In this document: positions 40,224-48,784 of the stretch, piece by piece
How positions within the stretch are numbered: position 1 is the first letter of the stretch
Layout: each line of letters starts with the position of its first letter
From: Actinomycetes bacterium
Lineage (GTDB): Bacteria; Actinomycetota; Acidimicrobiia; Acidimicrobiales; RAAP-2
NCBI GenBank assembly: GCA_021806045.1
Contig: JAJZDI010000003.1
Coordinates: 1 to 64,000, forward strand
Length of the DNA: 64,000 nt
Direction: 5' to 3'
Position numbers and translations under genes: made by a program
Notes under the pieces: model-generated
What the model was told of the DNA's origin: nothing
The model's database searches: none
Seen by the model: the letters and a program-made list of their open reading frames with translations, nothing else

Positions 40224-40871
40224 CTAGCCCTCGCTCGATCCCTCGCCGGAGGTGGCCGCCTGGCCACCCTCGGCCTCGCCCTCGCCCTCGCCGCCCTCAC
40301 CGGCGGCCGCCTGGACCCGAGGCGGCAGCCCGAGGACGACGACCGTCTCGGCATCGGTGTCCGACTCGACGCCGCGGGGCAGGGAGATGTCGGCCACCTT
40401 GATCGACGACCCGATCTCGAGGCCGGAGATGTCCAGATCGATGACGGTGGGGATGTCGGCCGGCTTGGCCTTCACGGCCAGAGTGAAGAGCTGCTGGTCG
40501 ACGATGCCGTCCCCGTGGTTCACCTCGATGGGGTCACCCACCAGGTTCACCGGCACGTCGGCGGCGATGACCTCGTCACGCCGGACGATGAGGAAGTCGA
40601 TGTGGGTGACGACGCCGCGCACCGGGTGGCGCTGGACGTCACGGGCCAGGGTGAGGTGGCGTGCGCCGTCGATCTCGAGGTCGAGCAGCGTGTTGAGACC
40701 GGCGTCGCCCGAGACGGCCTGGCGGAACTCCCGGGCGACCACCGACACGGGGATGGGGTCGGTGCCATGTCCGTAGACGACCCCGGGGATCCGCCCCGAC
40801 GCCCGCAGGCGGCGCGACGAACTCGACCCTGGTTCGCGGCCGGACTCGGCGACGAGCGTGATCTCGGGCAT
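40224..40871 (-). CDS. rplY: 50S ribosomal protein L25 / general stress protein Ctc
   Basis: A 215-residue long-form bL25 that binds 5S rRNA. LVAESGREPGSSSSRRLRASGRIPGVVYGHG and HLTLARDVQRHPVRG (quoted in part) match the 5S-binding N domain, and IPTVIDLDISGLEIGSSIKVADI the C-terminal beta domain of Ctc. The C terminus is an acidic Gly/Glu tail. The pth gene follows within four bases, as in most actinobacteria. The upstream 346 bp (40872-41217) hold no ORF I can support. Confidence 0.94.
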   Translation of the reverse strand: MPEITLVAESGREPGSSSSRRLRASGRIPGVVYGHGTDPIPVSVVAREFRQAVSGDAGLNTLLDLEIDGARHLTLARDVQRHPVRGVVTHIDFLIVRRDEVIAADVPVNLVGDPIEVNHGDGIVDQQLFTLAVKAKPADIPTVIDLDISGLEIGSSIKVADISLPRGVESDTDAETVVVLGLPPRVQAAAGEGGEGEGEAEGGQAATSGEGSSEG

Positions 40872-41217
40872 GGCGTGCTCCTCGGGCAGTGTCGGCGGTC
40901 ACGGGTGCCGGATGGCCTCCGGTCCCGCTGGTGGGACGTGTGCAACGGGACGTGAGCGCAGGACGTGCGGGCGGACGCCGGGCGTGCGTGGTGCAGGACC
41001 GGAGCCCGACCGGGGAATCCTGGCCGAACGTCCCGATCGGTACGGGCAGCCGACGCTGGCGCGCGACCACCTGAACCTTCAGGCCGGAAGAGTCTAGACG
41101 AGCGGGCGGGGGACCGGCCAACGCCTGGGAGTGGACGCCCATGAACGGGTCACCGGGCCCACCGGAGTATCAGGACTAGGGTTCCGCCCCGACGGACCGA
41201 AGCCCCCGAGGAGAGTC
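40872..41217. other. Divergent intergenic region between rplY and the collagen-like gene
   Basis: 346 bp without a supported gene. It must hold both promoters. Seen: a CTGAA-cc-TTCAG inverted repeat at 41071-41082 and the 8-bp palindrome GTCTAGAC at 41092-41099. A GGAGAG ribosome binding site lies just before ATG 41218. No tRNA, riboswitch core or terminator recognised. Confidence 0.5.
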
Positions 41218-42435
41218 ATGACCACACGCTTCCGTCGCGGTGCCGCCGCGGCCATCGTCGCACTGCTCCTGATGGGCGCCGGTGTGACCATCGGGCAGAG
41301 CTCGGTCCCCCGCAGCCCCACGGTCCGCCTCTCGGCCCAGTTGGACTCGGCCACCCGCGTTGCCGCCACCACGACCGGAACGGGGTACTGGCTCGTCACC
41401 TCGGACGGCAACGTCTTCACCTTCGGCACCGCCCAGAACTACGGGTCGATGGCCGGCAAGCCGCTCAACGCGCCGATCACCGGAATCGTCCCCACGGCAG
41501 ACGACCATGGCTACTGGCTCGTCGCCAGGGACGGTGGCGTGTTCGCCTTCGGCGACGCCGTCTTCCACGGCTCTCTGGGCGGAAGGTCGCCCAACGCCCC
41601 CATCGTCGGCATGGCCTCAGCCGTCCCGGCCGCCGTCGCCACGAGGCAGCTCGACAGCGGCGCCGGCCAGCCCACTTCGACCGTCGGCAACGACGGTGAC
41701 TTCTACCTCGACACCACCTCCACCGTGCTCTACGGCCCCAAGGCCAACGGCACCTGGCCGAGTTCGGGTACTGACCTGATCGGCGCCACGGGACCAGCGG
41801 GACCAGCGGGTGCGACGGGTGGGACCGGCCCACAGGGACCAGCGGGACCAGCGGGTGCGACAGGTGGGACCGGCCCACAGGGACCAGCGGGCCCAGCGGG
41901 ACCAGCGGGACCAGCGGGCACCGCACTGACCTACGAATCGAGCAGCACGATCTCGGTCTCGACAGCATCCGGGGGACTCCCCTCGAACGGCGCGCTTCTC
42001 CCCCTGGACGGTTCGCTCAACAGCGACGCCGTCCAGGTTCCGTTCGGACCGACGATCGACGTGACGTCGACCGGCGGCTACATACCCCAGAGCGTCCCGC
42101 AGAACGAGACGATCACGTCGATGACCGCCTACTTCTCCACCACCACGCCCCTGGCCCTCGTCGGGACCACGGTCACACTCACGGCTCAGCTGTACGAAAG
42201 CCCCGCCTTTAGCAACACCTTCGACCCGGTACCGGGTGCGGTCGTGGTCCTCGTGCCGCCGCTGACCGGCATCGTCTCCCCCGGCACCGTTTCCAACGGC
42301 ATCGTCACGGGCCTCAGCATCCCCGTACCGGCCGGAACCAAGTTGATGACGGTGATCACCGCGTCGGCCTCCGGAACAGCGCTGATCGACATCATCAACG
42401 GGTTCGGCTCCGTCGGGATCTCGGCGTCGGCGTGA
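41218..42435 (+). CDS. Secreted collagen-like protein with BclB-type C-terminal domain
   Basis: A 405-residue exported protein. Signal peptide about 1-28 (RFRRGAAAAIVALLLMGAG). Two GYWLVxxDGxVFxFG repeats (about 56-125) match a repeat family seen in actinobacterial surface proteins. A spacer, then 16 uninterrupted Gly-X-Y triplets (about 191-238; GPAGPAGAT, GGTGPQ). The last about 165 residues (TITSMTAYFSTTTPLALVG, VTLTAQLYES, VPGAVVVLVPPLTGI) closely resemble the C-terminal domain of Bacillus exosporium BclB-type glycoproteins, a trimerising domain. Start ATG 41218 after GAGGAGAG. Likely a surface or extracellular trimer. It sits between prs and rplY, on the opposite strand. Confidence 0.82.
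   Translation: MTTRFRRGAAAAIVALLLMGAGVTIGQSSVPRSPTVRLSAQLDSATRVAATTTGTGYWLVTSDGNVFTFGTAQNYGSMAGKPLNAPITGIVPTADDHGYWLVARDGGVFAFGDAVFHGSLGGRSPNAPIVGMASAVPAAVATRQLDSGAGQPTSTVGNDGDFYLDTTSTVLYGPKANGTWPSSGTDLIGATGPAGPAGATGGTGPQGPAGPAGATGGTGPQGPAGPAGPAGPAGTALTYESSSTISVSTASGGLPSNGALLPLDGSLNSDAVQVPFGPTIDVTSTGGYIPQSVPQNETITSMTAYFSTTTPLALVGTTVTLTAQLYESPAFSNTFDPVPGAVVVLVPPLTGIVSPGTVSNGIVTGLSIPVPAGTKLMTVITASASGTALIDIINGFGSVGISASA
41794..41928 (+). repeat. 45-bp repeat of the collagen-like segment
   Basis: The block encoding GPAGPAGATGGTGPQ is present twice in near-identical form, followed by four GGACCAGCG-type 9-bp units. The near-identity at DNA level shows recent expansion by slippage. Confidence 0.85.
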
Positions 42436-42486
42436 ACGACCCCTCCAGGGTCAACCGGTCCACCCGTGGGCCGTGCGGGCCCTGGT

Positions 42487-42507
42487 CCGGGGCACCGACC
42501 GCCCCGG
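42487..42507. terminator. GC hairpin between convergent collagen-like gene and prs
   Basis: CCGGGGC-accgacc-GCCCCGG: a perfect 7-bp stem with a 7-nt loop, 51 bp after the collagen-like stop and 43 bp after the prs stop. No T tract follows on either strand, as is common for high-GC actinobacteria; it could serve both genes. Confidence 0.5.
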
Positions 42508-42550
42508 GATAGAGCACGCGCACGGTGGCAGGGAACCTCCGCACGTCCGC

Positions 42551-43522
42551 TCAGGCCAGGTTCTCGCCCCCGAAGATCTCCGACACCGACGTGTCCTCGA
42601 ACACGGCGTCGATGGCATCGGAGATGAGCTCGGCCACCGAGAGGATCTCCAGCTTGTCGAAGTGGCGCTCGGGAGGGATGGGCAGCGTGTTGGTCACCAC
42701 CACCTTGGTCAGCGCCGAGTTCTTCAGGCGGTCGACGGCCGGGTCGGACAGGACGGCGTGGGTGGCCATGCACCACACCTCCGCCGCGCCCCGGTCGGCC
42801 AGCAGCTCGGCCGCAGCCACGATGGTGCCGGCCGTGTCGATCATGTCGTCGATGAGGACGCACGTGCGCCCCTCGACGTCACCCACCACCTCGCGGGCCT
42901 CGACGGCGTTGACCTTGCCCCGCGGCCTCGTCTTGTGCACGAGGGCCAGGTCGGCCGACAGGTGCTGGCTGAAGCGCTCGGCCACCTTGACGCGCCCGGC
43001 GTCAGGCGCCACCACCACCAGGTCGGGCACGTCCTGCCTGCGGAGATAGTCGACCAGCACGGGGGCGGCCGTGAGGTGGTCGAACGGCACGTCGAAGAAC
43101 CCCTGGATCTGGCCCGAATGCAGGTCGACGCTCACCACCCGGTCGGCCCCGGCGACCGAGAGCATGTCGGCCACCAGCTTGGCCGTGATGGGCTCACGGC
43201 CGGTGGCCTTGCGGTCCTGGCGGGAGTAGCCGTAGTAGGGGCAGACCGCCGTGATCCGCTTGGCCGAGGCCCGCTTGGCAGCGTCGATCATGATGAGGTG
43301 CTCCATCAGCGAGTCGTTCACCGGTCCGCAGTGGGTCTGGACGATGAAGACGTCGCTGCCGCGGATGGAGCTCCCGTAGCGGCAGTGGATCTCGCCGTTG
43401 GCGAACTCCCGGAGGTTCGCCTCACCCAGCTCGACGCCGAGCTTGTCGGCGATCTCCCTGGCCAGTTCGGGGTGCGACCGCCCGGAGACGAGCGCAAGGC
43501 GACGGCGGGGAGTGAATTCCAT
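42551..43522 (-). CDS. prs: Ribose-phosphate pyrophosphokinase
   Basis: A 323-residue PRPP synthetase using ribose 5-phosphate and ATP. RRLALVSGRSHPELAREIA, FANGEIHCRYGSSIRG, CPYYGYSRQDRKATGREPI, the signature DLHSGQIQGFFD, and the PRPP loop VLIDDMIDTAGTI are all present. ATG 43522 gives the usual N terminus; a GTG 9 codons earlier is less likely. It follows glmU by 109 bp in the same direction, the usual actinobacterial glmU-prs pair. It supplies PRPP for nucleotides and for TrpD. Confidence 0.96.
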   Translation of the reverse strand: MEFTPRRRLALVSGRSHPELAREIADKLGVELGEANLREFANGEIHCRYGSSIRGSDVFIVQTHCGPVNDSLMEHLIMIDAAKRASAKRITAVCPYYGYSRQDRKATGREPITAKLVADMLSVAGADRVVSVDLHSGQIQGFFDVPFDHLTAAPVLVDYLRRQDVPDLVVVAPDAGRVKVAERFSQHLSADLALVHKTRPRGKVNAVEAREVVGDVEGRTCVLIDDMIDTAGTIVAAAELLADRGAAEVWCMATHAVLSDPAVDRLKNSALTKVVVTNTLPIPPERHFDKLEILSVAELISDAIDAVFEDTSVSEIFGGENLA

Positions 43523-43631
43523 GCCGGCAACGCTACCGCGGCGACGCACCGGCGTCCGTGGCCACAGGGCCGGCCACAGGGCCGGCTGCGGACAGGCGAC
43601 AGGACCGACAGGGCCGGCAGAGCCCGGACCG

Positions 43632-44880: not shown

Positions 44881-44936
44881 GACGCCGAACCATGCGTACC
44901 ACCAGAAGGTCGACCGTCATACCGGGAGGGGGATCC

Positions 44937-47732
44937 GTGCGTCGAGGGCGCTGTTCGAGCTCAGGTCGCGCACGCCGTCCCTCGTACCACGAGCTCCGCT
45001 GCCTGGCATGCCAGCGCGAGGCCCGCAGGGCCCGGGGCGACGAGGGCATCTCGCTCATGGAGGTCATGGTCGCCCTCACCATCCTGTTGATCGTCATCCT
45101 GCCCATCGGCTACCTGCTCGACGCGACGGTGGGTCAGGCGACCCAGGCGCGCCAGCGGCTGGCGGCATTGCAGCTGGCGGAGCAATGGGTGGAGATCCTC
45201 TCGAATTCGACACCGCCTGTGATCGGGAACAGCGTGGTCACGGCCACACCCGAAACACCGGTGGATCCCGCCGGTCAGGCGTCGGCGCACCCCACCATCG
45301 CCGGAACCACCTTCACGGTGACCTCGACCTACACCGAGCAGTCGGTCAACAACGGCACGGGCCAGTCCGACCTCTGCTCGGCAGGTGAGCCGCCGTCGCC
45401 CAACCACCCTTCCGTCATCGTCCTGCAGGTACAGGTGTCCTGGGACCGGGGGCGCTTCGCAGTGAACGACACGACCAACCTCGAGTACCCCCAGCCGGGC
45501 GTCCAGGTCGACGGGTTCATCGCCATCCAGATCGTGAACAGCACCCAGGCCGACGTCTCGGGGAACTCGTCCTCGGCCCGCGTCGAGTCGATCCCGGTCA
45601 GGGTGACCAATACGAGCACGAAAGCCAAGACGGTGCTCTACCCGGACTCCAACGGATGTGCCTTCGACCAGGTGCCTCCGGGCACGTACACGGTGGGCAT
45701 CGCGCAGCCGACCGCGGGAACGCCGAAGACGTTCACCAACTACTCGGGCACACCACCGTTCGTCACCCCTGGGTTCCCGAGCACCGGGGGCGTCAGGAGC
45801 TACACCAGCACGCCGTACACGATCACCGTGACCCAGGAGCAGCCCGTCCAGCTGACGTTCGACGAAGGTACCGATGCGAACCTGACCTATGCGTCCTCCA
45901 CCGCCGTCGGGGACGGCGTCACCTGCACGGGTGCGGGCGGCACGACGTGCGTGACCACCGGTTCGACGAACTCGGGAGCGGCCATCTCGTGGGGAGGCAG
46001 CTCGTCGGCGTGGTCGACCACGACGACGTCCAAGGCGACGCGGATCCAGACGGTCGCCTGCACCACGAACGGATCCGTCTGCCTGGGCGGCGGCTACGGG
46101 CCGGGGAACGCGGGGGTGATCCTCTCGACCGGGAGCGGGGGGTCGCCCTCGTCGGCGGGCACCGACACGCTGCCCCCCGGGGTGGCCGACATCACCCAGA
46201 TCGTGTGCCCGAAGTCCGACGGGTGCTACGCGATCGGAACGGACGCCAGCGGCAACCCCGTGCTCCTGGCCGGCGCAATTTCTTCGACGTCGGGTGACAC
46301 GTGGATCACGGTCACCGCCCCCAACATCACCTTCACCCAGTTGACCTCGATCGCGTGTCCCGCATCGGACATCTGCGAGCTCGCCGGTCAGGGCATCGTC
46401 GGCACCAACCCCTCCTCCCCGGGGATCCTCCGCATGTCAGGTGATCCCGGGAACGTCGCCGGTAACCCGACGTGGGCGCCCACGTTCACCGCCGACGACA
46501 TCCCGCCGGGACTGGTCTCGCTGGGGCAGGTGACCTGCCCGTCGTCCTCGGAGTGCATCGCCCTCGGGGCGGGCGACACGAACAGCGCAGCCGACGCCGT
46601 GGTGCTGTCGGCGTCCATCGCCGACTCTGGGGCAAGCGGGTGGTCCAACGACCCCCTCCCGGCCACGGCCGTCAGCGGCTCCGCCGTGGTCACGAGCATC
46701 TCGTGCTCGGGGTCCTACTGCGTGACCGTCGGTACCAACGGCGGGACACCATGGGTCATGGAGGGCCAGGTGGCATCGGGCGGGGACACGTGGTCCGATG
46801 CCACCCTCTCGGGGATCGCGTCGGTGACGTCGGTGGCGTGCGGACAACCGTCGGGATCCGACCTGGCCGACTGCGCCCTGGGGGCCACGTCGTCCGCCGC
46901 CATCTCCGACCCGGGCGAGGTGCTCCTCGGCTCCCTGACGAGCGGTGGCTGGTCGTGGAATGCTGCCGTCTCCGCCACCAGCTCGAACCAGCTCGAGTAC
47001 GTCTACGGCGTGTCGTGTGAGCCGTCGGGTATCGGTGGGACCTGTGCGGCGGTCGGCGCCACGCCCCAAGGGCCGGTGGTGATGGCGGCGTCCGGCGGTG
47101 CCGGCGGGAGCTGGAACGTCGAGACCCCGAGTGGCCTCGACGGCAACTACGTGAACAACGTTCCCGTGGAGGTCGCCCAGACGGCCACCACGACGTGGTC
47201 GACCCAGGTGAGCTACGCGACGGCCTCGGCCAACGGCAACGCCACGTCGCTCCCCAATACGCTCTACCCGTACACGAACGGCTACGCCGTGGCCGCTGGC
47301 GACTGCGCAGGCGAGGGAGGTGCGGGGCCCAGCGGCTCCGACGTGGCAGCACCGGGCGGTACGGCGTCGACCGTCGTGCCCCTCGGCGATCTCCCCATCG
47401 AGGTCGCCACCCAGAACGCCAACGGGATCTTCGTACCGGTCGCCGCCGCCACCGTCTCTCTCACCGCGGCCTCGAAGACGTACGTGCCGCCGGTGAACTC
47501 GACGTCATCCGGCAGCTGGCAGAACTGCCCGGCCGACACCTACTCGCTGCCGGCCACAGGACCTGACGGGCTGAGCAGGTCGGCGGTTCCGTTCGGCGTC
47601 TACACCCTCACCGTGACCAACGGGTCGACGTCGCAGTCGCAGACGATCATGGTCGGCACCAACCCCGGCAGCGTCACCAGCACAACGATCGTTCCCGAGT
47701 CGCCGACACAGCCGTTGGTGGTGGTGATGTGA
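44937..47732 (+). CDS. Giant prepilin-like protein with seven Cys-pair (propeller-type) repeats
   Basis: A 931-residue protein. GTG 44937 is chosen because GGGAGGGGG lies 5 bases upstream; the ATG at 44892 has no ribosome binding site. A 37-residue basic leader ends at Gly, followed by ISLMEVMVALTILLIV, a type IV prepilin cleavage site with Glu5. After a pilin helix come a carboxypeptidase-regulatory-like Ig fold (about 180-280) and seven repeats of pattern hhhxC-x4-9-CxxxG with first Cys near 375, 424, 474, 534, 590, 635 and 694. The spacing of 45-60 residues fits a seven-bladed beta propeller. A further Ig-like segment closes the protein. First gene of a three-gene operon. Confidence 0.8.
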   Translation: MRRGRCSSSGRARRPSYHELRCLACQREARRARGDEGISLMEVMVALTILLIVILPIGYLLDATVGQATQARQRLAALQLAEQWVEILSNSTPPVIGNSVVTATPETPVDPAGQASAHPTIAGTTFTVTSTYTEQSVNNGTGQSDLCSAGEPPSPNHPSVIVLQVQVSWDRGRFAVNDTTNLEYPQPGVQVDGFIAIQIVNSTQADVSGNSSSARVESIPVRVTNTSTKAKTVLYPDSNGCAFDQVPPGTYTVGIAQPTAGTPKTFTNYSGTPPFVTPGFPSTGGVRSYTSTPYTITVTQEQPVQLTFDEGTDANLTYASSTAVGDGVTCTGAGGTTCVTTGSTNSGAAISWGGSSSAWSTTTTSKATRIQTVACTTNGSVCLGGGYGPGNAGVILSTGSGGSPSSAGTDTLPPGVADITQIVCPKSDGCYAIGTDASGNPVLLAGAISSTSGDTWITVTAPNITFTQLTSIACPASDICELAGQGIVGTNPSSPGILRMSGDPGNVAGNPTWAPTFTADDIPPGLVSLGQVTCPSSSECIALGAGDTNSAADAVVLSASIADSGASGWSNDPLPATAVSGSAVVTSISCSGSYCVTVGTNGGTPWVMEGQVASGGDTWSDATLSGIASVTSVACGQPSGSDLADCALGATSSAAISDPGEVLLGSLTSGGWSWNAAVSATSSNQLEYVYGVSCEPSGIGGTCAAVGATPQGPVVMAASGGAGGSWNVETPSGLDGNYVNNVPVEVAQTATTTWSTQVSYATASANGNATSLPNTLYPYTNGYAVAAGDCAGEGGAGPSGSDVAAPGGTASTVVPLGDLPIEVATQNANGIFVPVAAATVSLTAASKTYVPPVNSTSSGSWQNCPADTYSLPATGPDGLSRSAVPFGVYTLTVTNGSTSQSQTIMVGTNPGSVTSTTIVPESPTQPLVVVM

Positions 47733-48784
47733 CGACCCTTCGCTCTCTCCCCAGGTGGCGCCAGGCCCGGGCCCGGTTCGAACAGCGGGGCGACGGCGGC
47801 CTGTCGCTGATCGAGGTGCTGCTCGCCTCGAGCCTCATGATCGTGGTGATGACGCTGACCTTCCTCAGCCTGAACAGCTTCATCTCGATCGGCAACACGG
47901 TCAACGCGCAGTACAAGGAGTACGACCAGTTGGTTCCGTCGGTCGCCGTCCTCCAGCAGCTGGTGCGGACGGAGATCGAGCCGGGTCCGGCCGACGCGAG
48001 CGGTGCCGTGATCCCGGGGTTCGGCGTCAGCTCCACCACCGACCCCACCGCGTGCCCGACCGTCTCCGGCCAGCCCGACCAGATCTGCGGTGTCGGGAAC
48101 TTCAACCTGACCTTCTACGCGAACGTCGGCTACGCCTACGGTCCGGCCATGATCGTCGCCGGCGAGACCACGGCATCGGGTACCCCGACCACGACGTGCT
48201 CGACGACCTCCCCGTGCAACTTCCAGGTGAAGGAGTACCTCCCGAAGGCGCGGACCTGCCCGTTCTCCCTGACCAGCACGTCCCACTGCACCTACACGAG
48301 CAGCTACAAGCTCATCGAGAACGTGCTCGGGGTGGTGAACGACCCCAGCCAGACCACTCCCTTCACCGTCTACAACAACACCGTCCAGGCCCCGACGCAG
48401 CCGATCTTCGCCTACACGCTGTTCGATCCCGGCAACGACATCACGACCGGGATCTCGGCGGCCGACGTGCAGGCCAACGAGCTCCCGCTGGCCGCCACGC
48501 CCTACTCACCCACCTACGCCGGCTCCACTCCGGCAGAGACGAATCCGACGACCACGGCGGCCGTAGCCCACCTGAACTCGTGCACGGCGACGTCGGCTAC
48601 GTATCCCTACCTGGCGCTCAGCTGCCCGGCCGACGCCATCCAGCGGGTCACCATCGACCTCAAGGTCCTCCAGAAGGGCTCGGGGACGAACGGCGAGGCC
48701 GAGGTCCTGACCACCGTCTACCGGAACCAGGGGAATTCGCAGTCTCCCCAGCTCCCCTTCCAGTACTCGACCAGCGTGGGGTGA
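47729..48784 (+). CDS. Prepilin-like protein (PilW-type)
   Basis: A 351-residue protein. A 23-24-residue basic leader ends in GG before LSLIEVLLASSLMIVV, a prepilin cleavage/methylation motif with Glu5. The rest (about 60-351) is a secreted beta-rich domain with paired Cys (TTCSTTSPCNF; RTCPFSLTSTSHC). The ending PFQYSTSVG has no anchor signal. GTG start overlaps the preceding stop (GTGA), so it is translated with the first gene. A minor pilin or pseudopilin is expected; no assembly ATPase, platform protein or prepilin peptidase is in the window. Confidence 0.8.
   Translation: MTTLRSLPRWRQARARFEQRGDGGLSLIEVLLASSLMIVVMTLTFLSLNSFISIGNTVNAQYKEYDQLVPSVAVLQQLVRTEIEPGPADASGAVIPGFGVSSTTDPTACPTVSGQPDQICGVGNFNLTFYANVGYAYGPAMIVAGETTASGTPTTTCSTTSPCNFQVKEYLPKARTCPFSLTSTSHCTYTSSYKLIENVLGVVNDPSQTTPFTVYNNTVQAPTQPIFAYTLFDPGNDITTGISAADVQANELPLAATPYSPTYAGSTPAETNPTTTAAVAHLNSCTATSATYPYLALSCPADAIQRVTIDLKVLQKGSGTNGEAEVLTTVYRNQGNSQSPQLPFQYSTSVG

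Follow-up and report, generated by a model that had tools for sequence, protein, structure and literature searches.

Results

The collagen-like gene between prs and rplY

The window, by which we mean the whole 64,000-nucleotide stretch of DNA analysed, contains a gene for a collagen-like protein that sits between prs and rplY, on the strand opposite to both (Table 1). A ggagag sequence is found upstream of its ATG, at positions 41210-41215. All of the parts that the original prediction had described (a signal-like start, two GYWLV units, 16 Gly-X-Y triplets and a C-terminal domain) are present in the open reading frame, and the strings TITSMTAYFS and PPLTGI can be read directly in the C-terminal part. 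The protein scored 29 bits against Pfam Collagen (PF01391; gathering cut-off 27.2) and, over its whole length, 110.3 bits against TIGR03721, "exosporium glycoprotein BclB-related protein" (cut-off 93.15). A profile search with the C-terminal part had been set as the test of its kinship with BclB; the last 172 residues alone matched TIGR03721 with 113.5 bits (E 1.1e-32, model positions 6-167 of 169), again above the cut-off, which identifies a BclB-type domain. In Pfam, the C-terminal domain had no match at E ≤ 1 and the whole protein matched Collagen only. The adaptor that precedes the stalk follows the pattern GxxGDFYLDTxxxxLYGPKxxGxW, with GDFYLDT at residue 160, and no LPXTG end was seen in the 405-residue sequence.

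Table 1. Coordinates of the features discussed (window positions unless a locus is named)
Feature	Position	Strand	Basis
rplY (ribosomal protein L25/TL5), flanking gene	40224..40871	-	Pfam
Stretch absent from the same-genus genome G001 (~56 bases instead)	41101..42550	.	blastn, prs-rplY interval against L048
Collagen-like protein with BclB-type head, 405 residues	41218..42435	+	Open reading frame, ATG 41218 to stop ending 42435; ggagag upstream; Collagen and TIGR03721 over cut-offs
Signal peptide or signal anchor, residues 1-27	41218..41298	+	Basic n-region, then hydrophobic stretch; judged by eye
GYWLV unit 1, residues 56-97, predicted propeller blade	41383..41508	+	Unit HMM, 71 bits
GYWLV unit 2, from residue 98, predicted propeller blade	41509..41628	+	Unit HMM, 73 bits
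Adaptor before stalk (GDFYLDT...LYGPK...GTW), ~residues 148-188	41659..41781	+	Common to contig 9 protein and G051; pairwise alignments
Collagen-like stalk, 16 Gly-X-Y triplets, residues 189-236	41782..41925	+	Pfam Collagen, 29 bits
BclB-type C-terminal domain, predicted TNF-like jelly roll	41917..42432	+	TIGR03721, 113.5 bits; model and structure comparison
prs (ribose-phosphate pyrophosphokinase), flanking gene	42551..43549	-	Pfam
Second collagen protein with two GYWLV units	L123 2458-5097	-	Own genome, contig 9

G001, a genome of the same genus, has the site without the gene: its prs, 94.8% identical, lies ~240 bases from rplY. Around rplY, with ~1.5 kb covered to either side, none of 29 relatives gave a match to the protein; prs was visible at 20 of these loci, and in 16 it stood within ~320 bases of rplY. 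The simplest reading of these comparisons is that the gene was gained in the lineage of the window's genome. Another actinobacterial genome, G051, has its rplY match on contig 21 and a BclB-type gene on contig 35, so that the two actinobacterial genes occupy different sites. A recent import from a low-G+C source was considered and rejected: at third positions the head has a G+C of 0.877, close to the 0.92-0.96 of four neighbouring genes, and the odd value is limited to the Gly-X-Y stretch (0.522).

Elsewhere in the window, the large protein encoded at 44892-47732 (+) has a prepilin-type N-terminal methylation motif at 19.7 bits, just below the Pfam cut-off of 21.2; the adjoining open reading frame at 47729-48784 (+) has a start that looks alike by eye, and the two are possibly pseudopilin genes.

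Predicted fold of the head

An AlphaFold2 model of the head, built from five aligned sequences, was all-beta (pLDDT 79.5, pTM 0.81). When compared by VIA-align it matched a PaL entry (Z 8.9), 4-1BBL (8.8), RANKL (8.1), F-BclA (7.3), TNF (7.2) and BxpB/ExsFA (7.1); such values, between 7 and 9, are moderate, the tool itself warning that Z < 8 may mean a common arrangement only, and absence of a family from the matches listed was not taken as its exclusion. The comparison thus lends supportive but moderate evidence to a TNF-like jelly roll. By sequence, no convincing match to the head was found among solved structures. In passages of PMC13188886, the heads of C. difficile BclA and BclB are described as similar predicted homotrimers.

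Distribution of the BclB-type head

The occurrence of the head was surveyed with TIGR03721, the query genome being counted among the matches. It was found in two of 61 relatives and, at the level of the class, in two of the 395 genomes sampled, each pair including the window's own; in two of 396 genomes of the phylum, these being the window's own and a spurious one (G521); in one of 119 genomes around G051, which was G051 itself; and, in the phylum to which a Paenibacillus genome belongs, in 21 of 398 genomes, of which 20 passed the cut-off. The G051 protein consists of a signal, the adaptor, collagen and a head, lacks GYWLV units, and scores 75.5 bits, below the cut-off of 93.15. G521 was rejected as a third actinobacterial copy, as it gave only 21.6 bits and its DNA has two internal stops.

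In a tree of 27 heads, from which two fragments (L038 and L042), one weak match (L039, 26.7 bits) and L044 were kept out, the window and G051 heads grouped together (97/93) against 25 Bacillota rows, under a midpoint root only. The best identity of the window head among the rows of the tree was 47%. The domain transfer proposed from the letters agrees with the sporadic distribution in the class and in the Paenibacillus phylum and with the gene-free prs-rplY site; Bacillus as the donor does not follow from the tree, which, with the two actinobacterial heads split from the Bacillota rows and the root placed at the midpoint, names neither donor nor direction.

The sporadic distribution of the head suggests transfer, and, together with a likeness in giant viruses, makes the head look mobile. 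The viral entries closest to the head by predicted fold, among the matches listed, are giant-virus proteins; A0A3G4ZRS9 and A0A1V0S973 (BFVD; Terrestrivirus and Catovirus) have a predicted fold like that of the head, and one entry, named for a BclB C-terminal domain, is 32% identical with a TM of 0.87. With the window head as query, no match was obtained among viral contigs, where a Bacillota profile gave three, and none on plasmids at E ≤ 0.01. A head match does lie on a plasmid filed under Stenotrophomonas (L044, CP031730.1); the gene layout around it resembles that of the Lysinibacillus plasmid L045 (NZ_CP130332.1), and the record may be mislabelled.

GYWLV units in the genome

The idea that GYWLV is a repeat type of this lineage's own is supported by its abundance: 161 matches were found in the window's genome, which comprises 3,104,608 bases on 43 contigs and is 97.46% complete, and the repeat recurs every 42 residues. 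No Pfam or NCBIfam model covers the unit, only scattered partial matches being obtained, among them the propeller repeat RCC1_2. By sequence, the best PDB match of the units was a surface-layer protein, 1l0q (E 1.7e-7), which we take to be a YVTN propeller. A related viral array of six units (L156) was folded with a pLDDT of 85.7 and a pTM of 0.86, and its 18 strands form six sets of three. The best matches of this model were NHL domains (Z 19.3-19.8), which are six-bladed propellers, followed by WD40 propellers (15-17). A six-unit GYWLV array is thus predicted to fold as a closed, NHL-like propeller of six blades. The chain of the window protein itself has two units, not six.

Array loci were taken from the listed part of the 161 matches and their units counted by HMM. 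Nine of 48 arrays were dropped, four because they stood at contig ends and five because they were split between two frames, which left 39 intact ones among the matches listed. The five split arrays (on contigs 9, 17, 24 twice, and 33) reflect either frameshifts or assembly errors. Six units were counted in 31 of the 39, twelve in one and exactly two in two; the remainder comprised two four-unit arrays, two five-unit arrays (one of 4.5 units being counted as five by eye) and one weak single unit. A comparison of repeats speaks neither for nor against assembly collapse as the origin of the four- and five-unit arrays, the repeats being about as alike in the six six-unit arrays compared.

The two two-unit arrays of this set belong to the window gene and to contig 9:101846-102088, and these two proteins were also, among the matches listed, the only array proteins with Gly-X-Y runs, defined as at least 7 triplets with at least 4 prolines. 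With two of the 39 carrying collagen and two carrying two units, the chance of such a coincidence is 1 in 741, which is not an independent test, as the adaptor that both proteins have suggests shared ancestry. In the contig 9 protein, a signal and two units are accompanied by 11 triplets and two adaptor copies, and repeats of the YVTN/NHL type form the C-terminus where the window protein has its BclB-type head; against Collagen it reaches 25.8 bits, short of the cut-off of 27.2. Judging by the adaptor, the two proteins may stem from one ancestor and hence not be independent. Other collagen-like frames were seen on contig 36 (L015 2334-3287 and 4366-5370, +), where both end in Gly-X-Y with no C-terminal domain.

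Within the two two-unit proteins the DNA identity between the units is 0.68 and 0.59, and the closest units in six six-unit arrays share 0.93-0.98. Since the two units have diverged, they do not represent a collapsed or freshly copied array. As read from these identities, the count of six persists although units are copied, and the two-unit state is old.

GYWLV units in viruses

A profile scan of contigs from uncultivated viruses, of which 80 of 90 relatives were kept (L158-L237) besides L110 and L156, yielded 85 arrays; two were set aside as duplicates from contigs already represented and four because they continue past a contig end. Among the 79 closed arrays there were 41 with two units, 30 with three, five with six, two with twelve and one with four, so that 78 have 2, 3, 6 or 12 units. 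The single four-unit exception, L182, reads by eye as three units plus a leading strand, and L110, a relative of L156, has twelve. When the proteins were sorted by the part preceding the array (35% identity), five of the 19 groups mixed counts: two and three units in three groups, two, three and six in one, and six and twelve in one. Counts that divide six or are multiples of it thus appear repeatedly among related viral enzymes, and four and five are scarcely seen.

The GYWLV units form the C-terminal part of the viral proteins, which are mostly endolysin-like where scanned (n = 11): endolysin-type domains were found in 9 of the 11, in one of them only below the cut-off. Gly-X-Y was seen in none of the viral arrays; as 41 of them have two units, two units do not need collagen. 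If two-unit viral chains do arrive at six blades, they would have to do so in some other way.

Discussion

A proposed propeller completed by three chains

The new part of this finding is a base with two predicted blades, and the number of GYWLV units is the most interesting feature of the protein. From computed results, namely the parts of the protein, the family of its head, the predicted folds, the unit counts, the coincidence of two units with collagen and the gene-free site in G001, we arrive at a tentative proposal, held at just short of even confidence: the gene would encode a secreted protein of an actinobacterial cell envelope, built as a homotrimeric stalk and head, in which the blades of the three chains close a single six-bladed propeller at the base. 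Each chain would contribute two GYWLV blades near its N-terminus, a short adaptor, a collagen stalk of 16 triplets and a TNF-like head of the BclB type. Three chains would wind into a collagen helix, ~14 nm long by the rise per residue of collagen, with the heads trimerising at the far end; at the near end, three pairs of blades would close into one ring. The closed propeller would attach the protein to the cell envelope, stalk and head projecting from the surface and the head contacting something outside the cell.

The reasoning behind the shared ring is one of counts and predicted fold. Collagen implies three chains, and the two units counted in each would give six, which is the common number of the GYWLV family. 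That the ring probably binds the envelope is suggested by the endolysins, which use the same unit as their C-terminal part. Relevant precedents exist for oligomeric closure: oligomers of NHL-derived fragments restore the six-bladed form of their parent (Voet et al., as described in PMC6805158). The same source describes WD40 fragments whose closed forms have eight or nine blades where the parent has seven, and by this analogy closure at six would not be assured.

A more general rule of six, which we would put forward just as tentatively and a little below an even chance of being right, is that GYWLV chains carry 12, 6, 3 or 2 units, the short ones assembling into oligomers to complete the ring: trimers of collagen chains with two blades, dimers of endolysins with three units and trimers of endolysins with two. 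Collagen stalks would then be capped by a propeller at one end and bear an exchangeable head at the other, of the BclB type in the window protein and of YVTN/NHL-type repeats in that of contig 9. Against the shared ring stand the four-, five- and single-unit arrays among the 39 (matches listed) and the two-unit viral arrays that have no collagen; the latter, together with the contig 9 Collagen score below cut-off, tell against a tight link and slightly lowered our confidence.

Alternative explanations

A serious contender, only slightly less likely than the shared ring, accepts the same trimeric stalk and head and takes the two GYWLV units as a short, open wall-binding module, like that of two-unit viral endolysins, with no closure across chains. 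It would account for two units being the commonest class in viruses (41 of 79), where they occur without Gly-X-Y, and for the existence of four- and five-unit arrays in the window's own genome. An open module nevertheless gives no reason why six should be the common count, as in 31 of the 39 genomic arrays (matches listed), and it leaves unexplained that 2, 3, 6 and 12 make up 78 of the 79 viral arrays and are mixed within related groups.

It is improbable that the gene encodes a phage-derived, tail-fibre-like protein or a relic of one carried in the chromosome. The collagen and the part adjoining it do match PHROG tail-fibre families (best E 2.9e-12), and many viral contigs contain GYWLV units; the head by itself, however, matched neither PHROG nor, at E ≤ 0.01, any of 50,697 phage records, Gly-X-Y is absent from every viral array examined, and the protein has an export-type start and is encoded between prs and rplY.

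Although the curated profile places the C-terminal domain in the BclB family, a true exosporium-type spore protein like that of Bacillus is a very remote prospect, since Spo0A_C was not found in the 97.46% complete genome (the one regulator searched, with a positive B. subtilis control), and the Bacillota proteins inspected, several of them cut by contig ends, start by eye with no signal comparable to that of the window protein, whose N-terminus reads, also by eye, as an export signal. By this search the host does not appear to be an endospore former, and a spore role is thus unlikely. Three WhiB genes were found in the genome; among 14 controls Corynebacterium glutamicum was the only match, which marks the genome as actinobacterial, and it probably belongs to the Acidimicrobiia. 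According to passages of PMC4942563, BclB of C. sporogenes also lacks the Bacillus targeting motif.

Relation to known systems

The proposed trimer with a shared propeller resembles several known systems in part. As in the window protein, a collagen stalk followed by the same C-terminal family is found in BclB of B. anthracis and C. sporogenes and in other TIGR03721 proteins; the window protein differs in having an export-type start and GYWLV units in place of the spore-targeting N-terminus. Weak matches over the adaptor and stalk were obtained to the Lcl adhesin and Scl proteins (23-33 bits, against cut-offs of 325-500 bits). The NHL propellers that best match the GYWLV array model (Brat, TRIM2, TRIM3) have their six blades in one chain and are 10-13% identical over the aligned part. 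In RSL, two blades per chain give a six-bladed propeller from three chains. BambL likewise forms one from three protomers (PMC5478714), the arrangement that we propose here; the likeness would be one of arrangement, and in the window protein collagen and a TNF-like head would in addition tie the chains together.

A precedent for a BclB-like head away from spores is ClpD of B. amyloliquefaciens FZB42, a collagen-like protein with a BclB-like C-terminal part that is reported to be needed for biofilm (PMC4319854); the passages on it describe no GYWLV units. The receptor-binding protein of S. aureus phage 80alpha is a trimer with propellers on a stem, but there every chain carries a five-bladed propeller of its own and a coiled coil forms the stem; the passages on this protein (PMC7048315) describe none that several chains build together. 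Open-licence PMC literature holds no mention of "TIGR03721" or of "GYWLV", and what it has on Acidimicrobiia together with "collagen-like" concerns sponge matrix.

Implications

The BclB-type head, best known from Bacillus spores, also occurs in bacteria that form none, so that its presence alone does not indicate spores. If the proposal of a shared ring is true, the window protein would offer a natural example of a propeller completed between the chains of a collagen trimer, in which the blades per chain predict the number of chains, and the same counting rule, applied to many uncharacterised viral endolysins, would predict how these oligomerise. It would also provide a trimerising base for designed collagens and, for a little-cultured lineage, an envelope-binding domain.
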